Below, one piece after another: positions 23,191 to 40,007 of a DNA stretch of 45,995 nucleotides. Made by a program: the position numbers and the translations under genes. The stretch covers positions 1-45,995 of the forward strand of contig JAFWFL010000047.1 of NCBI GenBank assembly GCA_017515595.1, written 5' to 3'. Within the stretch, counting starts at the first letter, position 1. Every line of letters begins with the position of its first letter. Below the pieces are notes generated by a model. It was given only the letters and a program-made list of their open reading frames with translations. It did not search any database and was not told where the DNA came from. The DNA comes from Coriobacteriales bacterium (GTDB lineage: Bacteria > Actinomycetota > Coriobacteriia > Coriobacteriales > UMGS124).

Positions 23191-23227
23191 CACGAGGTCA
23201 TAAGGGGTGTTCCGGCAAAAGGAGAGT

Positions 23228-25663
23228 ATGTTGACGCAACCGCAAACAACCTTGCATACAGATTCACTTGAGACTCGCTGTGTTCTTGCAATTGATACAT
23301 CAACCGAGATGCTTGCCTGCGCCGTAGCAAACGTGACGTTTGAGGGCCGGGTTGCCAAGAGCATTGAGCTGCTTGGCTCGGCAGACCACACAAGCCCGCG
23401 CCAGGCAAACGTTGAGCTTGTGCTCACGGTAGACGCAATGCTCAGAGACGCGGGTTTACAGCGCTCAGATATTGACATGGTTCTGGCAGGCACGGGCCCC
23501 GGCTCGTTTACCGGTGTGCGCATTGGCGTTGCCGCAGCTAAAGGCTTTGCCTGTGGTCTCGAGGTCCCTCTTTTTGGAGCTTCTACGCTTGACGCCGTTG
23601 CCTGGAATCTTTGGCAAAACGGCATCAGGGGACGCGTGGGTATTGTGGGCGACGCAATGCGCAAAGAGGTGTACCCGGGCATTTATATGCTTACTGACGA
23701 GGGGGCAGAGCGCTGTTTTACTTCCGAGACAGTCATGAAGGTTGCGCAGGCAATAGAAGCCTGGACCGCTGCCGAGAATACCAAAAACCTGCTTCTCGCA
23801 GGAGACGGCCTCAAAAAGTACAAAGCCCAGTTTGCAGAAGCCGGCTTTGAGGAGTTCGTGAGCGAAGAGTTGTGGTATCCCACGGGAGCCGGCCTGCTTC
23901 ATACTCTCTTAAAACCGAGCAGGTTCGACGAGCGCTTTTTGGGTGATCCGGCCTCAGTGCTGCCGCTTTATACGAGGCTTTCTGATGCCGAGGAGAACGA
24001 ACGCATTCGTTTGGGCCTTGCACAAAAAGAGACGCTCTTTGTGACCGGTGTTGACGAGCTTTTGGGAAGTTTGCCATACCAGCTACGTCCCATGAACATA
24101 AATGATGCGGTTGCCGTAGCTCAGCTTGAAGCCCGGGTATATGCAGACGAAGCAACCCATACGCCCTGGTCGCGTGCACTCTTTGAAGAAGAGTTTTCTC
24201 AGCGCGACCGCCTTTGGTGGACCGCTTATGACAAAGGCCAGGTTATTGCCTTCACAGGCGGTATGGTTATAGACGGAAACCTCGAAATCCTCGACGTTGT
24301 GGTTGCTCCGGAGTTCAGAAGACTCGGTATTGCTCAGGCTCTTTTGGAACGCGTTTCATATGACGCGCAAATGCTTGGAGCTACTACATCAACGCTTGAA
24401 GTTGCGGCAACTAATGAGGCGGCTCAGGCGTTATACCGCAAGATGGGATTTGAGCCGGTAGGCGAGCGAAAGAACTATTACGGTCAGGGGAATCATGCGC
24501 TTGTGATGAAGGCAGATCTCCCGCTCAAAGCCGCTCAGACAGTTGAGCGTGATGCAGAGAATGCTGACGCCTCTAATCCATGGCCGCAGGTGCATGCAGA
24601 GCGCACTCATGAAGAAGAGCAGGCAATTGCTGCCGCCGGCAAGATGATACTTGCGATCGAAAGCTCCTGCGATGAGACCGCTATGGCGATTATTGATGGA
24701 AGCGGCCGCATCATCTCGAGTGTTGTCGCAACACAAATTGATTTTCATGCGCGTTTTGGCGGCGTGGTGCCCGAGATTGCAAGCCGCAAACATATTGAGG
24801 CACTGGTAGGCGTTTACCAAAAGACGCTCGAAGACGCTGCGAACACGCTTGGCGTGTCTTCGCTTGCACCTCAGGACCTCTCGGCCATTGCCTGTACGCA
24901 AGGTCCGGGCCTTGTAGGAGCGCTTGTAGTGGGACTTTCTTTTGCAAAGGCGCTCGCATGGACGCAGGATATTCCGCTTGTGTGCGTAAACCACCTGGAA
25001 GGCCATCTCTTTGCAAATCTTCTTGAGACTCCTGATCTCACGCCTCCGTTTGTGGCAAGCCTGCTCTCGGGCGGGCATACCATGCTTGTGCACGTTAAAG
25101 ACTGGGGAGACTACCGCATTTTGGGCGAGACGCTTGATGATGCGGTGGGCGAGGCGTTTGACAAGGTAGCCAAAGCGCTCGGGCTCGGGTATCCCGGCGG
25201 TCCCATTATTTCGCGTTTTGCGAAGCAGGGTAACCCCAAAGCCATTGACTTCCCCCGCGCGATGCTCCACAGCCATGACTACAGGTTTTCTCTCTCAGGT
25301 TTAAAAACCGCAGTTGTGACCTATATTGAGGAGCGCAATGCCCAGGGAAGGCCGGTCAACATTGCAGATCTTGCCGCTTCTTTTGAGGCAGCGGTTATTG
25401 ATGTTCAGGTGGCCAAGGCAAAAACTGCCGTTAAAGAATGCGGAGTAAAAGAATTTTGCGCCGGAGGCGGTGTGACCGCAAATAAAGCCCTGCGTGAGGC
25501 CTATGAGCGTGCGTTCAGGCCCAAGCATGTGCGCGTGACCGTGCCGCCGCTCGAGGCGTGTACCGACAACGCAACCATGATTGCGCTCGCTGCAAAATAT
25601 CACCTTGACCATGGTGATGTTTCGCCTCTGACCGCAGACGCGGACCCAAATCTCAAGCTATGA
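23228..25663 (+). CDS. tsaB-rimI-tsaD: Triple fusion TsaB - RimI - TsaD (t6A synthase and N-acetyltransferase)
   Basis: A single 811-residue open frame carries three domains normally encoded by adjacent genes. Residues about 18-265 are TsaB (VLAIDTSTEMLACAV, GTGPGSFTGVRIGV). Residues about 283-430 are a GNAT acetyltransferase like RimI, with the acetyl-CoA motif VVVAPEFRRLGIAQALLE and ATNEAAQALYRKMGF. Residues about 472-811 are TsaD (LAIESSCDETAMAI, the metal-binding HLEGH, GGHTMLV, ending in TDNATMIALAA). TsaB and TsaD together with TsaE install t6A. The start is ATG 23228 with AAAGGAG upstream; a GTG at 23207 lacks one. comF overlaps the stop. Confidence 0.95.
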   Translation: MLTQPQTTLHTDSLETRCVLAIDTSTEMLACAVANVTFEGRVAKSIELLGSADHTSPRQANVELVLTVDAMLRDAGLQRSDIDMVLAGTGPGSFTGVRIGVAAAKGFACGLEVPLFGASTLDAVAWNLWQNGIRGRVGIVGDAMRKEVYPGIYMLTDEGAERCFTSETVMKVAQAIEAWTAAENTKNLLLAGDGLKKYKAQFAEAGFEEFVSEELWYPTGAGLLHTLLKPSRFDERFLGDPASVLPLYTRLSDAEENERIRLGLAQKETLFVTGVDELLGSLPYQLRPMNINDAVAVAQLEARVYADEATHTPWSRALFEEEFSQRDRLWWTAYDKGQVIAFTGGMVIDGNLEILDVVVAPEFRRLGIAQALLERVSYDAQMLGATTSTLEVAATNEAAQALYRKMGFEPVGERKNYYGQGNHALVMKADLPLKAAQTVERDAENADASNPWPQVHAERTHEEEQAIAAAGKMILAIESSCDETAMAIIDGSGRIISSVVATQIDFHARFGGVVPEIASRKHIEALVGVYQKTLEDAANTLGVSSLAPQDLSAIACTQGPGLVGALVVGLSFAKALAWTQDIPLVCVNHLEGHLFANLLETPDLTPPFVASLLSGGHTMLVHVKDWGDYRILGETLDDAVGEAFDKVAKALGLGYPGGPIISRFAKQGNPKAIDFPRAMLHSHDYRFSLSGLKTAVVTYIEERNAQGRPVNIADLAASFEAAVIDVQVAKAKTAVKECGVKEFCAGGGVTANKALREAYERAFRPKHVRVTVPPLEACTDNATMIALAAKYHLDHGDVSPLTADADPNLKL

Positions 25664-26439
25664 CAGCACGTGTAAGACGTCTTCAAAAGCCGGTCCTCTC
25701 TTTTTTAAAAGAAGGCCTGGCAGAGACCTTGTGGCCCACGCGCTGCGTAGGCTGCGACGCTCCGGGCAGTCTGCTTTGTCCGGACTGTACACAAAAACTC
25801 CCGTATATAGAACAGATGTACGCCTGCAAAAAATGCGGAGCTCCCTATGGCTATCTGGTATGTACAGAGTGCTCCGGGTGCGTAGACCGTGAAGAAATCT
25901 TTGGAGCCGAGCCCACTCCTGAGCGCTTTTGTGAGCTTGACGGAATGTGTTGTTATGGTGAACACGAGTGGCCGCTCGACCGGCTTGTGCGAACCTATAA
26001 AGACTGGTCGGAATCGCGTCTTGCAGATATACTCGGCCGTTTTATTGCAGATGCCCTCAGGGAATCAGACGGTCTCGCGCGTTTGGACTTGCAAGCGTAT
26101 GATGCGGTTTGTTTTGTTCCGGCGACCCCGCAGGCATATGCCCGGCGTGGTTTTGACCATATGGAACCAATCGCAAAGAACGTAGCAGGGCTTCTCGGCA
26201 AGCCCTGTCTTGATGTTTTGGCTCGTAGATCGCACCATGACCAGCGGTCTTTGAGCCGTGCCGAGAGGAGCTCGAATGTGAGCGGCTCTATGGTAAGCAT
26301 AAAATCGCTGACGGGTTTGAGTTTTATTTGTATTGATGATGTGTTGACAACGGGAGCTACCATTCGCGAAGCTGCACGTACACTCAAAGAAGCTGGTGCA
26401 TCTTTGGTATTTGGAGCAACCGCTGTTCGTGTATGGTAA
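25660..26439 (+). CDS. comF: ComF family phosphoribosyltransferase-like protein
   Basis: This 259-residue protein belongs to the ComF/GntX family, linked to DNA uptake in naturally competent bacteria and of uncertain chemistry elsewhere. The N-terminus has a double zinc-ribbon pattern: CVGCDAPGSLLCPDC (about 27-41) and CKKCGAPYGYLVCTEC (about 53-68). The C-terminal phosphoribosyltransferase domain has the PRPP-binding loop ICIDDVLTTGATI (about 222-234). RAYRRR-like PQAYARRGFDHME fits the family. It overlaps tsaB-rimI-tsaD by four bases. The next protein gene is 338 bases away, after a hairpin-rich region. Confidence 0.93.
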   Translation: MTARVRRLQKPVLSFLKEGLAETLWPTRCVGCDAPGSLLCPDCTQKLPYIEQMYACKKCGAPYGYLVCTECSGCVDREEIFGAEPTPERFCELDGMCCYGEHEWPLDRLVRTYKDWSESRLADILGRFIADALRESDGLARLDLQAYDAVCFVPATPQAYARRGFDHMEPIAKNVAGLLGKPCLDVLARRSHHDQRSLSRAERSSNVSGSMVSIKSLTGLSFICIDDVLTTGATIREAARTLKEAGASLVFGATAVRVW

Positions 26440-26777
26440 AAACCGGAAAGATTTGGTACTATGTGCACTATCCTCTTGGGTCTGTGGTTGCGGGCGTAAG
26501 TCCAAGTCCATGGCAGACGCGGTCAAAAGGATCCACGTAAGCTTTTATGTGCGCATAAAAGTGAGCACGGCGCGTTCTAGGAGTAAGTCATGCCGCCCGT
26601 TTAACCGTTTCAGGATACCAATATCCTGCGGGCGAGAGAGCCGTTAGTGGCGGGCATTGCGGTGCCTTAAGCGAATGCTCCGGCATGCGAGTGTGGGGTC
26701 AAAAACCAGGTCAGCCAAGAGGATGTGCTTGGGGTTTTGGGTTATTGGAGCTGCTTTAAGCAGAGAAGGAAGAAGTT
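26440..26777 (+). ncRNA. Candidate structured non-coding RNA downstream of comF (raiA-like by position)
   Basis: No coding frame of merit spans these 338 bases, but several strong hairpins do. CTTTTATG-TGCG-CATAAAAG (26542-26561) is a perfect 8-bp stem. CGCCCG (26594-26599) pairs with CGGGCG (26629-26634) and encloses AGGATA-CCAA-TATCCT (26612-26627). ATGC-TCCG-GCAT (26675-26686) has outer CG/CG pairs. CCAAG/CTTGG (26715-26732) is followed by GGTTTT. As I recall, the raiA RNA motif occurs in Firmicutes and Actinobacteria near comF and raiA genes; here comF is immediately upstream and an HPF/RaiA-family gene lies 4 kb away. The identification is inferred from structure and position, not from a motif match; a leader controlling the downstream lipoprotein is the main alternative. 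Confidence 0.45.
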
Positions 26778-27626
26778 ATGAAGCGCAGGGTCGTTGCTGT
26801 TTTGTCTTTGCTTGTATGTCTTTTGGTAAGCGGAGCTTTAATTGGCTGTTCAGACTTACCCTCTCTTGAACAGGCTCAGCGGCAAACCCAAATGTTCCCC
26901 ACCGTCAGTGAAAAAGCAACCATTACAGAAGGCGTCTTGACCATAGGCGTTAATACCGAGAACCCCCCGTATGCATGGAGAACGTCGTCTGCCGTAACCC
27001 CTGTTGAAGGTGTTGACATTGATGTCGCCCTCGCACTTGCCGAGAACATGGGTCTCACAGCACACTTTGTGAACATCGGCACCAATGTAAACGCCGCCGC
27101 AAACGGCGCCTGCGATATCGTAATGGGTGTTCAGGGTTCGGTTTTGACTGATGGCCGCGAGCTTGTTATTGGCAGCTACTCTGACAGCGCCCCCGCGATT
27201 TTTGGCGCCGAGCAGCCCGAGGTTGTCACCGTCACCGAGCTCGCGATATCCGACGTTGGCGTGCAGGACAATTCAGTCTCGGCACGAGCCCTCCAAACCA
27301 TAGCTCCTACCTGTCTTCTTACTCCGTATGCTACCTTAAATGATGCCTTTGCCGCGCTGGCAGCTGGCGATGTAGATTATGTTGCCTGCGACTCTTTCAT
27401 GGGCGGATACCTCGCAACGGCGTATCCCACCATCACCATGGTTGGCGCCCTGTCCTTGCCCGAGACCCGAGGCATCGCAGTAGCTACCTCCAACGGCGAA
27501 CTTCAAACAGCGGTGCGCAGCGCCCTCGATACCATCTCCTCCAACGGCAAGCTCCGTCTCATCAGAGAAAAATGGGTAGGCGACCTGGGAGTCATAACCT
27601 CCTCCACCCTCGTAGTGAACCAGTAG
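26778..27626 (+). CDS. Solute-binding lipoprotein, amino-acid type (SBP family 3)
   Basis: The 282-residue protein has a lipoprotein signal peptide with lipobox LIGC at the cysteine near residue 24. It continues with a type 2 periplasmic-binding fold: LTIGVNTENPPYAWR, the conserved GVDIDVALALAENMGL, and GACDIVMGVQGSVLTDGRE, as in family 3 amino-acid binding proteins. It ends with LRLIREKWVG. No ABC permease or ATPase gene is adjacent, so its transporter partner is unknown or it acts as a sensor. The terminal bases overlap a diverged copy of the palindromic element. AGAAGGAAGAAG lies before the start. Confidence 0.88.
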   Translation: MKRRVVAVLSLLVCLLVSGALIGCSDLPSLEQAQRQTQMFPTVSEKATITEGVLTIGVNTENPPYAWRTSSAVTPVEGVDIDVALALAENMGLTAHFVNIGTNVNAAANGACDIVMGVQGSVLTDGRELVIGSYSDSAPAIFGAEQPEVVTVTELAISDVGVQDNSVSARALQTIAPTCLLTPYATLNDAFAALAAGDVDYVACDSFMGGYLATAYPTITMVGALSLPETRGIAVATSNGELQTAVRSALDTISSNGKLRLIREKWVGDLGVITSSTLVVNQ

Positions 27627-30550: not shown

Positions 30551-31147
30551 CTATGCACCCATTGCAGGGGCAGGGCTAATTGGCTTAAGAATGCCATAGC
30601 CTTCATCTTTGCGGCGATAAATAACGTTGACGTCGCCCGTCTCGGCATTGGTAAATACAAAGAAGGGGTGGCCCAGAAGATCTGTCTGCAAAAGGGCCTG
30701 GTCTACCGTGAGTCTTGTGAACTCAATAAGCTTCTCGCGCAGAATCTCTTCCTGTTCCTCTTCTTCCTCTGCTTCAGGCTGCTTTTGCTCAGCTATCTCC
30801 GGAAGCTCAACTGCAAGATCAGAGAGTGATCCGGACTGACGCTGGCGCCTGTCAATTACACGGGTCTTATACTTACGCAACTGCCTGGATACGCGGTCTG
30901 CTGCCGCATCAATGGCGGCGTACATATCTGTGGCGGCTTCGCTAACGCGAATTACCGTGCCCTTGGTAAATACCGTGACCTCCACAACCTGGGGAACAGG
31001 ATTTGCAGGGTTCTTCTCGACGCGGAGAACAACCTCTGCCTCCATAGGAATGTCAAAGACATTCGTGGCGGCCTCGAGTTTCTCGGTAACGTGTGCGCGC
31101 AATCCATCAGAAACAGCGATGTTGCGTCCGGTTATTGTAATGTTCAT
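30551..31147 (-). CDS. hpf: Ribosome hibernation-promoting factor, long form
   Basis: Long HPF dimerises 70S ribosomes into inactive 100S particles in stationary phase. The 198-residue protein has the N-terminal RaiA/S30AE domain (about 1-100, with ITITGRNIAVSDGLRAHVTEKL and YAAIDAAADRVSRQLRKYK). A Glu-rich linker follows, and then the C-terminal dimerisation domain (about 145-190) with LGHPFFVFTNAETGDVNVIYRRKDEGYG. ATG 31147 is chosen, with AAAGGAG upstream; an in-frame start five codons earlier has none. The gene is expressed leftward and ends at a strong terminator. Confidence 0.95.
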   Translation of the reverse strand: MNITITGRNIAVSDGLRAHVTEKLEAATNVFDIPMEAEVVLRVEKNPANPVPQVVEVTVFTKGTVIRVSEAATDMYAAIDAAADRVSRQLRKYKTRVIDRRQRQSGSLSDLAVELPEIAEQKQPEAEEEEEQEEILREKLIEFTRLTVDQALLQTDLLGHPFFVFTNAETGDVNVIYRRKDEGYGILKPISPAPAMGA

Positions 31148-31282
31148 ACAAGCTCCTTTCACTCAACGAACACGTTAAGAGAAAGCTTACCCCAACTTGG
31201 AGCAAGAAACGCGCTCAATCTCAAAATAATTTGATGTTTTTTGCAGATTAACATTCTAAGAAGGCCAAAAGGCAAAACTTTT

Positions 31283-35385: not shown

Positions 35386-35624
35386 AATAGTATTCACAGA
35401 TAACACGTCCCCCGTGTCACTTAAGGCAGCCAGATTCTTCAAGATTTTGAAAGATGCTTTAAGCGTTTTACCTAGGTTTTCATACCGTATATCTACAGGT
35501 TTTTGTTTCTAGGCTGATAAATGATGTGAGATGAAGTATATTTTATTAAACACGAATGCAATAATGTAGCGGCTTCAAAAACTACCTGCTCAATTTACTA
35601 TGGTTTAAGGTTGGAGGTATGAAC

Positions 35625-38600
35625 GTGAAAACTCGGTTCTTGGTGTTCTTTGTATGGTGTTTGGTTATAACGTCGCTTTGTTTATGCGGCGCGGCAATGG
35701 CACAAACAAATGGCATAGCAGCCAATGCTTCTATAATTACACCCTCAGGCGGGGGGATATATAACATGTCGGCAGAATCAACCGCGAGCGATCAGTCCCA
35801 AGCTCAGGTCAAAAGAGCCACGCAGGAAGAAATAGCCGAATTATCTTCTCAAACCCAGTCGCAAACAACTCCTTCGGGAGTTCCAAGCCAGCCATCTAAC
35901 CAAGTTGAAGACAAAGGAACCTTAAGCACCCAATCAGATCCTCAAATAGAGACACCTGACCCATATACTGTAGACGGCGACTGGGTATTTGAGGGCACAG
36001 TTACCATCTTTGCCTCAAGTGCAAGCAAACTCTATGACGGAAAGCCGCTAACCTGTAATGAAGTGCTTGTGTATGGTTTGCCCGGTAACTTCAGCATCAG
36101 CGCCACTTGTTCGGGAAGCCAAACAAACGCAGGCACAGAAAAGAATACGGTAATTTCGTATACCATCTATAACAAATCAAATAAAGATGTTACCCGTCAC
36201 TTCACCAGCATAGAAACTGTTCCCGGTCAGCTTGTTGTTAAGCCTGTCCCAATGACCATATGGACCGGAAGCGCAACTAAGTTCTATGACGGAACTCCTC
36301 TTACCAACAATGAAGCAGGTATAGATCTTGTCTCGTATAACACCACAAGAATCTACCGTAACACTTCTGCAGATTATGAAGAATTCTCCTTCATCACCCC
36401 TGAAAGCGAGCATAAAGAGCCCTGGAGCGATCTTGCTTTAGCACTTACCGAGAAAGAAGGAGAAGTACTGTATGGTTTAAGCGGCAGTGTCGTTGTATAC
36501 AGCACCAACCCCCTTACCGGAGAAACCGCTAAAACCACGCTGGATGCCGGCTATAAACTGGCCGTGCGCCTCTATGATAAGCCAGACACAACAAGTGCTT
36601 CCCAAGATGCAAATAAACCGACAATAGAGTTTGTCAAGACATATGTGACAGAAGAAGACCTGCCAACAGAAATACTGTATCTGTTTTTTAATAATGAGTT
36701 TTTCCTCTCAGACTGCTGCAGAGATGCAAATTGGGACGAACCAAGTATTGCAGGGCGCATAGAGCTTCTCCCCAAGTTCGCTTCTCCCACAACCGTTAAA
36801 AATGAAGTAATCATCGATCAAGCACTTGAGAATAATCTTATACATGAGTTTACCGATATACGCATCAGTGTTGATTCGGGCATAACATACTATGACGGCA
36901 AGATACTTAACGACCAGGAAGCACACTTTACTGAAGTAGATGTCACGCACTCCATAAAGGTTGTCGCTACCGGCAGCCAGACAGAAATAGGAGAAAGCGA
37001 GAATTCCTATACCATTGACTGGGGCAGTGAAAACAAACGCAACTTTGACGTCAGCGAAGACCTAGGAACTCTCAAAGTAAGAGAGCCCATCAATAGCATT
37101 ACGATCTATACGTCTTCAGACAGTAAAACCTACGACGGAACACCGCTCGAAAACGACTATGTATTTGTAAGCGGTCTGCCAGAAGGTTATGAATTTTATG
37201 CCTGGGTAACCGGAAGCCAAACAGACGCGGGCTGGAGCCAAAATACTCTTGGGGGATATTACATTCTCGATTCCAATGAAGAAGATGTTACCAATGACTT
37301 TACTGACGTGACAATCGAGCTCGGTATACTTCTTGTTGAGCCTGCGCCGCTATATATCACAACAGGCTCCGCAAGCAAGGTATATGACGGAGCCGAGCTT
37401 ACTGATCCTGATATCACAATAGAAGGTACTGTATACGGAGAGTATATCGAAGTTGCAACCATAAGCACACTCACTGACGCAGGCAGTATAGAAAACGACT
37501 ATGATTTTGATTGGGGCTACACCAATCCCTATAACTATATTGTCTACGAAGAGCTTGGCACCCTTACTGTTGAGCCCTTAATCATAGAAGTTAACATAGG
37601 CGCAGAGAGCACAATAAACTATAGCGGAAGCGTATATGTACCCATACCTACAGTTATCTATCTAAATGGCCTTCATGCAGGGGAATTGGCCTTATCTGAA
37701 GGCAATGATGGCATGACATTTACCTATACTCTGATTACCGGTGATACCTTAAAGCTTGACATAGTGGGAAGCGGCAGTGATGCGGGTGACTACACGCTCA
37801 CAGCTTCGGTTGTCTCTCTGAGCAATGATAGTAACTATTCGCTTTCTATGCCCAAAGGCTCTCAAGTAACCATTTTGCCGGCATCTCTCTCAATAAGCAC
37901 CGGAAGCGCAAGTAAACCCTATGACGGAACTGCGCTTACGTCTGGTGAAGTCAGTGTAAGCGGCCTTATAGACGGTGACAGCATAACTGTTACGGCTACC
38001 GGTACCATCACAGAAGTCGGCAGTACTGAGAATACCTATGAAATCGACTGGGGAGAGGTAAACCCAGATAACTACACCATCTCCGAAAGCCTTGGTACCC
38101 TTACCATAGAGCCTCCGCTTGTCACAGAGATCAAGGTAACTACCGGATCCGAAAGCAAAATGTATGACGGAACACCTCTCACCTGTAGCGAAGCTGCCAT
38201 CGCCGGCCTCAGAGCAGAAGACGAAGGCAAAGTAACCATCACCGCCAACGGCACCATCACTGACGTAGGTACTGCCGAGAACACCTACGAAATCGACTGG
38301 GGCGAAGTAGACCCAGACAGCTATACCATTACCGAAGAAAGCCTTGGTACGCTTGAAGTAACACCAAAGGAGATCACCGTTACCACAGATTCAGATTCAA
38401 AGGAATATGACGGCACACCTCTGACAAATGACAATGTAACAATAACTGGTCTTGTGGAAGAAGAGACAGTATCGGTTACCGCCACAGGAACGATCACAGA
38501 CGCGGGTAACCAGACCAATACCTATGAGATCGACTGGACCTTGGGCACCGCAAAGGAAAGCAATTATACGGTGATGGAAGACCTCGGCACGCTTACGGTT

Positions 38601-40007
38601 GAACCGGCTGCTGTAGTTTTTGACTTGGACTGCGAGGGCAAGATTTTTGATGGTTGCCCGGTATTTCCTGGACAAATCAGTGGTACGTATGCTGACGGAA
38701 ATCCAGTGTTACAAGACTACGAGGTTGAAGATCGAGATGATTATGGAAATATCATAAGCATAACATCCGTATTTTACCTCGTTGGCGAAGACGAGGTACA
38801 GCTATATAGCACAGGTAGCGAGAGTGTCAATGCAGGCGATTTCACTGTCACTCCTGAAGTTACAATGATGACGGGTGAGCAAAACAACTACACCTTCTCC
38901 TTTAAAAACAACAAGGGCACAATTACTCCTCGGGATTTCGAGCTTTCTTTGAGCGATGGTGTCAATGTATACTACGATGGACTTTTCCATGGCGGTAATC
39001 TGAATGTTCTTGACGAAGATGAATTTTACTGGGTAGAGAATGAGAGTATTGGAGATGGTTTCACCACATGGAAGGTCTATTGCACTAATGGTGACATAAT
39101 CGATGTAACCATCAATGGTGGTGGCGTAGAAGATAACACTTACTCACTGTCATGCATCTACGAGTTCTCTTCTGGAACCGAAAGCAATTACAATATATGG
39201 GTAGCAAATGATTCGCTTACCATTACAACGTGGGACATAGCCATTACCTTAACCTCTGACACTACAAGCAAGCCCTATGACGGTACGCCACTCACTGCAG
39301 AAGACGTAAACATAAGTGTAACCGAAGGTTGGTTACCCAGCACCTGGCAGCTGATTGCCGTAGCGACCGGCAGCCAGACTGAAATAGGCAGCAGCGAGAA
39401 CACCATTGAGTACTACATCTATAATGAATATTGTGTCGATATCACGCAGGTCTTCAGTTCGAATGTGACATTAGTTCCCGGCACATTGACAATAACTAGT
39501 TTGGTTTACATAACATATTATATTGATATGTCTAATAATAAGGATGGAATTTATGGTGATGTGCTAGTAGAAGGCGCGGTTTGTACTCCATACAAGATAT
39601 CTGATTCGGAATGGAAAGTTACCCTTCCGGATAGCAGCGTGTTTGAGGTTATATTTTTAAAAGAGGGAGAAAGTAATCTGCTGAATGAAACTCCTATCCC
39701 AGGTCAGGCAGTCACGTATGGTATCTTCCCGGATGAATTACCAGAGAACTACTCAATAGACTACAGAGGCTGTTGCTTTGTGGTATCGAGTGATGAATTT
39801 AGTGATGGTAAAATTATCTATCATTGGGTTCCGGATGATAGAATAGGTACATTGGAATTGAATGGAATAGGTGTAGATGGTTGCAATTACTTTATACTGC
39901 TGGATTACAATGCCTTTATGAATTATTACAAGTCAGTAGAGAGTACTATGTCAAGCACTCAAATTGCTCGAGCACTCCTTTCGAAAGGAATTATTAAGAA
40001 ACCGTAA
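35625..40007 (+). CDS. Large secreted surface protein of MBG-like YDGTPLT repeats
   Basis: This protein (1460 residues) has a signal peptide with a likely cut after AMA near residue 26, a Ser/Gln/Thr-rich spacer to about residue 115, and then tandem domains of about 70-90 residues. A typical unit begins SGSASKxYDGTPLT and has TATGTITDAGSxENTYEIDW before ending in LGTLTVEP. About nine units are clear, at least three others are diverged, and units 7-9 are nearly identical. This matches MBG-type bacterial Ig-like domains of surface adhesins. There is no LPXTG motif, sorting helix or cell-wall binding domain at the C-terminus (LLSKGIIKKP). I chose GTG 35625: GGAGG at 35613-35617 is seven bases away, while ATG 35619 is only one base away. 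Confidence 0.88.
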   Translation: MKTRFLVFFVWCLVITSLCLCGAAMAQTNGIAANASIITPSGGGIYNMSAESTASDQSQAQVKRATQEEIAELSSQTQSQTTPSGVPSQPSNQVEDKGTLSTQSDPQIETPDPYTVDGDWVFEGTVTIFASSASKLYDGKPLTCNEVLVYGLPGNFSISATCSGSQTNAGTEKNTVISYTIYNKSNKDVTRHFTSIETVPGQLVVKPVPMTIWTGSATKFYDGTPLTNNEAGIDLVSYNTTRIYRNTSADYEEFSFITPESEHKEPWSDLALALTEKEGEVLYGLSGSVVVYSTNPLTGETAKTTLDAGYKLAVRLYDKPDTTSASQDANKPTIEFVKTYVTEEDLPTEILYLFFNNEFFLSDCCRDANWDEPSIAGRIELLPKFASPTTVKNEVIIDQALENNLIHEFTDIRISVDSGITYYDGKILNDQEAHFTEVDVTHSIKVVATGSQTEIGESENSYTIDWGSENKRNFDVSEDLGTLKVREPINSITIYTSSDSKTYDGTPLENDYVFVSGLPEGYEFYAWVTGSQTDAGWSQNTLGGYYILDSNEEDVTNDFTDVTIELGILLVEPAPLYITTGSASKVYDGAELTDPDITIEGTVYGEYIEVATISTLTDAGSIENDYDFDWGYTNPYNYIVYEELGTLTVEPLIIEVNIGAESTINYSGSVYVPIPTVIYLNGLHAGELALSEGNDGMTFTYTLITGDTLKLDIVGSGSDAGDYTLTASVVSLSNDSNYSLSMPKGSQVTILPASLSISTGSASKPYDGTALTSGEVSVSGLIDGDSITVTATGTITEVGSTENTYEIDWGEVNPDNYTISESLGTLTIEPPLVTEIKVTTGSESKMYDGTPLTCSEAAIAGLRAEDEGKVTITANGTITDVGTAENTYEIDWGEVDPDSYTITEESLGTLEVTPKEITVTTDSDSKEYDGTPLTNDNVTITGLVEEETVSVTATGTITDAGNQTNTYEIDWTLGTAKESNYTVMEDLGTLTVEPAAVVFDLDCEGKIFDGCPVFPGQISGTYADGNPVLQDYEVEDRDDYGNIISITSVFYLVGEDEVQLYSTGSESVNAGDFTVTPEVTMMTGEQNNYTFSFKNNKGTITPRDFELSLSDGVNVYYDGLFHGGNLNVLDEDEFYWVENESIGDGFTTWKVYCTNGDIIDVTINGGGVEDNTYSLSCIYEFSSGTESNYNIWVANDSLTITTWDIAITLTSDTTSKPYDGTPLTAEDVNISVTEGWLPSTWQLIAVATGSQTEIGSSENTIEYYIYNEYCVDITQVFSSNVTLVPGTLTITSLVYITYYIDMSNNKDGIYGDVLVEGAVCTPYKISDSEWKVTLPDSSVFEVIFLKEGESNLLNETPIPGQAVTYGIFPDELPENYSIDYRGCCFVVSSDEFSDGKIIYHWVPDDRIGTLELNGIGVDGCNYFILLDYNAFMNYYKSVESTMSSTQIARALLSKGIIKKP

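Follow-up and report, generated by a model that had tools for sequence, protein, structure and literature searches.

Few bacterial RNAs without a known molecular function are, to our knowledge, as abundant and as intricate as the raiA RNA (ModT; Rfam family RF03072). Its usual upstream neighbor is comF (comFC), and its usual downstream neighbor is raiA/hpf. Action of the RNA in trans is known only from Clostridia: in Clostridioides difficile, it influences sporulation and the entry into stationary phase, and c-di-GMP rises when the RNA is lost (PMC11706538). A cryo-EM structure of the raiA RNA displays a pseudoknot, pk-1 (PMC11751092). The copy described here, from the class Coriobacteriia, resembles the raiA RNAs of Clostridium acetobutylicum and C. 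difficile in its full covariance-model match, its conserved columns, pk-1, and helices, and in the presence of comF just upstream. It differs from them in its next gene (a lipoprotein gene at 54 nt, not hpf or a PTS antiterminator), in the lack of a U-tract after P1, in a promoter of the extended -10 type, and in a host for which searches returned no Spo0A or GGDEF domain.

The window is a stretch of 45,995 nucleotides, in which a first-pass annotation had pointed to 338 bases after comF as rich in hairpins and empty of genes. No convincing gene lies between 26439 and 26778. The annotation had also suggested a raiA RNA from the closeness of comF, and the search that it proposed, cmscan against Rfam, bears out this identity: RF03072 matches at 26471–26723 on the + strand over the full model (positions 1–209), with 173.5 bits (gathering cut-off, 101.3 bits) and E = 4.3e-44. 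These positions hold a textbook raiA (ModT) RNA. It is large and folded, typical of an already described family, and present in a single copy in its genome. An alignment of 97 copies from Coriobacteriia and 40 from other Actinomycetota, onto which the Rfam structure was projected through the window's row, has 75 columns with at least 97% conservation, and the window copy agrees at all 75. The distinguishing mark of the stretch is conservation, not stability. Folding energy alone would have missed the RNA, since it is no better than that of shuffles (z = -0.30, + strand), and minimum free energy was dropped as support for a structured RNA. The same value is what one would expect of chance hairpins in a non-functional spacer, a reading already refuted by the Rfam match (E 4e-44) and by covariation that includes a pseudoknot, and to which we give practically no weight.

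Covariation in homologous regions, the other check that had been proposed, is present in P1, pk-1, P2, P4, P6, and other helices of the 137 sequences (coordinates that follow are on the + strand). The 5' strand of P1 (26471–26479) pairs with its 3' strand (26715–26723); pairing stands at 95%, with two-sided changes in 9/9 pairs, and drops to 56% upon a slide of one column. For pk-1, in which the P3-loop side (26515–26521) pairs with the pk-loop side (26571–26577), the corresponding values are 95%, 5/7 pairs, and 37%; within the window, 6 of its 7 pairs are standard, the lone mismatch being A26515–C26577. The same pattern of pairing and covariation extends to P2, P4, P6, and the helix 26638–26641/26677–26680. 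P2 is a hairpin (GGGC-GUAA-GUCC, 26492–26503) inserted after model position 22, which is 96% paired where present, with two-sided changes in 4/4 pairs. P6 (26594–26598/26630–26634) is 99% paired, with two-sided changes in 5/5 pairs. Covariation also pairs 26683–26687 with 26589–26593 at long range. Within the class, the 5' side of P1 is nearly all pyrimidine and the 3' side purine, unlike elsewhere.

Set against this structure, 2 of the 4 hairpins in the first-pass annotation stand and 2 fall. The stem of 8 perfect base pairs at 26542–26561 had been placed exactly and is P5 (CTTTTATG at 26542–26549, CATAAAAG at 26554–26561); the covariance-model alignment sets P5 of the window copy out of register, and these coordinates give the true stem. 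The nested stems at 26594–26634 correspond to P6, which covariation supports, and its inner hairpin (26611–26617/26622–26628). The hairpins at 26672–26689 and 26715–26732 are rejected because they compete with long-range helices supported by covariation: the bases of the former covary with 26638–26641 and 26589–26593 instead, and the latter occupies the 3' strand of P1. A ribozyme has been proposed from the compact fold of the raiA RNA (PMC11751092); the present analysis of sequence has no bearing on catalysis, and we regard this proposal as improbable.

The surroundings of the RNA are those of the family. On the upstream side, comF (25660–26439, + strand; Pribosyltran and DZR_2 domains, ComF model) ends 31 nt before it. 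The long-form ribosome hibernation factor hpf/raiA (30551–31162, - strand; PF02482 and PF16321, TIGR00741) also lies within the window, though 3.8 kb away and inverted. Elsewhere in the window, a single ORF (23207–25663) fuses TsaB-like, RimI-like acetyltransferase, and TsaD parts, and the 1462-aa product of 35619–40007, which begins with a signal-like segment and carries many repeats resembling one another, is probably a surface protein. A 5S rRNA (1–81) is truncated by the window start, which places the end of the contig within an rRNA operon.

The raiA RNA is present in 37/41 related genomes and in 294/300 genomes of Coriobacteriia. Three of the 6 absences in the class (G132, G114, and G116) fall at contig ends; in G132, the contig begins inside the 3' end of the RNA and continues into the lipoprotein gene. 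In G016, G262, G070, and G017, the RNA and its linked lipoprotein are both apparently absent, with paralogue-level matches only.

An extended -10 promoter element, TGGTACTAT, lies ahead of the RNA at 26454–26462 on the + strand (hexamer 26457–26462), with a predicted start at about 26468–26471. Its pattern, TGnTAnnnT, occurs within 40 nt upstream of the raiA RNA in 86/97 class loci, against 3.2 expected from shuffles. In nearly all of these cases it is placed 7–12 nt ahead of the RNA, so that the predicted start coincides with the first base of the raiA RNA or slightly precedes it. No conserved -35 box was found in the class loci (mean best match 2.4 of 6).

On the other side, the RNA is followed by a gene for a solute-binding lipoprotein of the SBP_bac_3 family (26778–27626, + strand; PF00497, E 4.7e-12), an orphan in Coriobacteriales, whose ATG lies 54 nt after the RNA and whose Shine-Dalgarno region, AGAAGGAAG, is at 26764–26772 on the same strand. 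The lipobox Cys24 is invariant in an alignment of 18 lipoprotein sequences. The same lipoprotein is found directly downstream of the raiA RNA in 94/97 class loci from at least 25 families, a count to which L053 was added by eye, its protein being in the query set. The distance from RNA to lipoprotein start has quartiles of 31, 34 (median), and 50.5 nt; start codons were picked by score (ribosome site, codon, and lipobox), and single distances may be off. The lipoprotein keeps its place behind the RNA in several families in which comF has gone or changed orientation and hpf has moved. Should the RNA not be raiA, the first-pass annotation had offered a large leader of an orphan lipoprotein gene; the leader distance holds across the class, and the RNA itself is raiA. 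In deep branches (e.g., L053), comF and the RNA are followed by two successive binding-protein genes, then permease, ATPase, and hpf, so the orphan gene in the window's order is probably the remainder of a transporter operon. The second binding protein of L053 (289 aa, from 1051 nt after the RNA) looks circularly permuted, with the C-lobe ahead of the N-lobe.

Transcription appears free to pass from the RNA into this gene. Beyond the class, P1 often has a U-rich stretch behind it (in 50% of loci from other Actinomycetota, against 14% in shuffles, and in 46% of those from Bacillota, against 18%), so that P1 would be able to end transcription there. In Coriobacteriia loci the frequency is 13%, against 9% in shuffles. 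No terminator was found between the RNA and the lipoprotein gene in 92/93 class spacers, and 1/93 holds a weak terminator-like site. In the window, a terminator-like site at 26715–26732 was set aside: it is weak, the region has 2 such sites against 2.8 expected, and its use would require an opened P1. Longer spacers between RNA and gene contain hairpins in some Coriobacteriaceae, and Rho or an unrecognized terminator may end the RNA transcript.

The explanation that we favor, and consider likely, is a trans-acting raiA RNA that would share its transcript with the lipoprotein mRNA and would probably arise from it by processing. RNA polymerase would start at about 26470, transcribe the folded raiA RNA, and continue into the lipoprotein gene, so that a single transcript would serve as structured RNA and as mRNA. 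Cleavage or trimming close to the base of P1 would free the stable raiA RNA, and the lipoprotein would be translated from the uncut fraction of the transcript. By analogy with its relatives in Clostridia, the freed RNA would act in trans on growth-phase control. We infer read-through, processing near P1, and trans action in Coriobacteriia from sequence. The basic task of the RNA would be independent of sporulation and of GGDEF-made c-di-GMP. No Spo0A was found in the 41 relatives, and the window's genome (97.7% complete) showed no GGDEF domain, nor did 11 further genomes that carry the raiA RNA; these genomes are partly drafts, with G003 and G033 in single contigs. The general function of the raiA RNA is therefore probably something else: where Coriobacteriia have neither Spo0A nor any GGDEF domain, sporulation and c-di-GMP, the two leading phenotypes, are improbable explanations.

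Whether the RNA acts in cis or in trans is a testable question, given its fixed leader position ahead of one lipoprotein. In Coriobacteriia, the raiA RNA could be a riboswitch-like leader that sets, through its folding state, the expression of the lipoprotein or, in deep branches, of the amino-acid ABC operon. Its spacing is fixed throughout the class, and the order seen in L053, with the RNA ahead of an ABC operon, is a typical riboswitch setting. As in the 5' leaders of amino-acid transporter genes, riboswitches among them, a folded RNA stands directly ahead of a binding-protein gene; the position and the absence of a terminator fit a co-transcribed 5' leader, the transcript being a predicted one. 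A riboswitch origin of the raiA RNA has also been left open (PMC11706538). Further, the 5' side of P1 is pyrimidine-rich in 90/97 class loci, against 17/40, 4/37, and 0/13 elsewhere, which would permit this strand to bind a Shine-Dalgarno sequence. Yet P1 5' strands match the spacers of their own loci no better than those of others (-10.36 against -10.16 kcal/mol; standard deviation of the permuted mean 0.25), and the pairing of P1 itself is far stronger (-21.0). Sequestration of the Shine-Dalgarno sequence through P1 was rejected, as the P1 5' strand does not coevolve with the spacer. Unlike in the leaders of amino-acid transporter genes, no expression platform was found, neither as a terminator in 92/93 spacers nor as a P1–spacer pairing specific to the locus, and the raiA RNA also occurs without the gene. 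Together with the unrelated genes that occupy the same place in other clades, these observations make us doubt a riboswitch-like leader.

The trans-acting RNA that we favor need not give the shared transcript any regulatory meaning: the RNA may act purely in trans, with the lipoprotein gene just using its strong promoter. We judge the chances of this arrangement to be a little short of even. It would agree with what lies behind the raiA RNA elsewhere, in records drawn as a sample by RNA pattern that is biased to one exact motif. Among the matches listed, secA stands mostly 29–31 nt behind the RNA in Acidimicrobiia, a 93-residue zinc-ribbon-like protein 28–47 nt behind it in a clade of Clostridia, and hpf from 32 nt on in other records; secA and the zinc-ribbon protein were identified by eye from translations. 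Such a variety of genes argues against a single ligand-specific riboswitch, and a distance of about 30 nt may be the shortest that accommodates a ribosome while P1 stays folded. In a clade of metagenome-derived Clostridia genomes (L186, L194–L199, L201, L205, L209–L214, and others), a U-rich stretch often lies between the RNA and the gene of the zinc-ribbon-like protein (MYEDKTLVC...). Losses in both directions would also suit a borrowed promoter, but the pairing with the lipoprotein has lasted through at least 25 families despite the loss or flip of comF and the move of hpf, which seems more than a borrowed promoter would need.

These losses suggest that the raiA RNA and the lipoprotein can be lost separately. 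In L003 and L006, the RNA and hpf are present and the lipoprotein is absent. In G040, a draft genome that is 74% complete, the lipoprotein gene is kept (E 2e-60) and the RNA is absent; a TGATAAAAT element stands directly ahead of the gene, as if promoter and lipoprotein gene had become joined. G040, G028, and G033 offer natural separations of RNA and gene. Finally, the RNA might be a dual-purpose leader that, besides any role in trans, controls in cis whichever gene lies about 30 nt behind it: the lipoprotein gene in Coriobacteriia, secA in Acidimicrobiia, the zinc-ribbon gene in the Clostridia clade, and hpf elsewhere. We consider this unlikely; if true, it would tie all of these genes to the growth state.

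As far as we searched, the extended -10 element, the missing U-tract, the lipoprotein link, the genes at a similar distance in other clades, the separate losses, and a host without Spo0A and GGDEF appear to be new. In the literature searched, we came across neither the class-wide lipoprotein link nor the common 30-nt spacing; this literature stops short of the 2017 discovery paper and the 2024 PNAS synteny study. One further genome of the class, G186, holds two copies of the raiA RNA (L103 and L104), each with its own lipoprotein gene, in an assembly of about 170 contigs.
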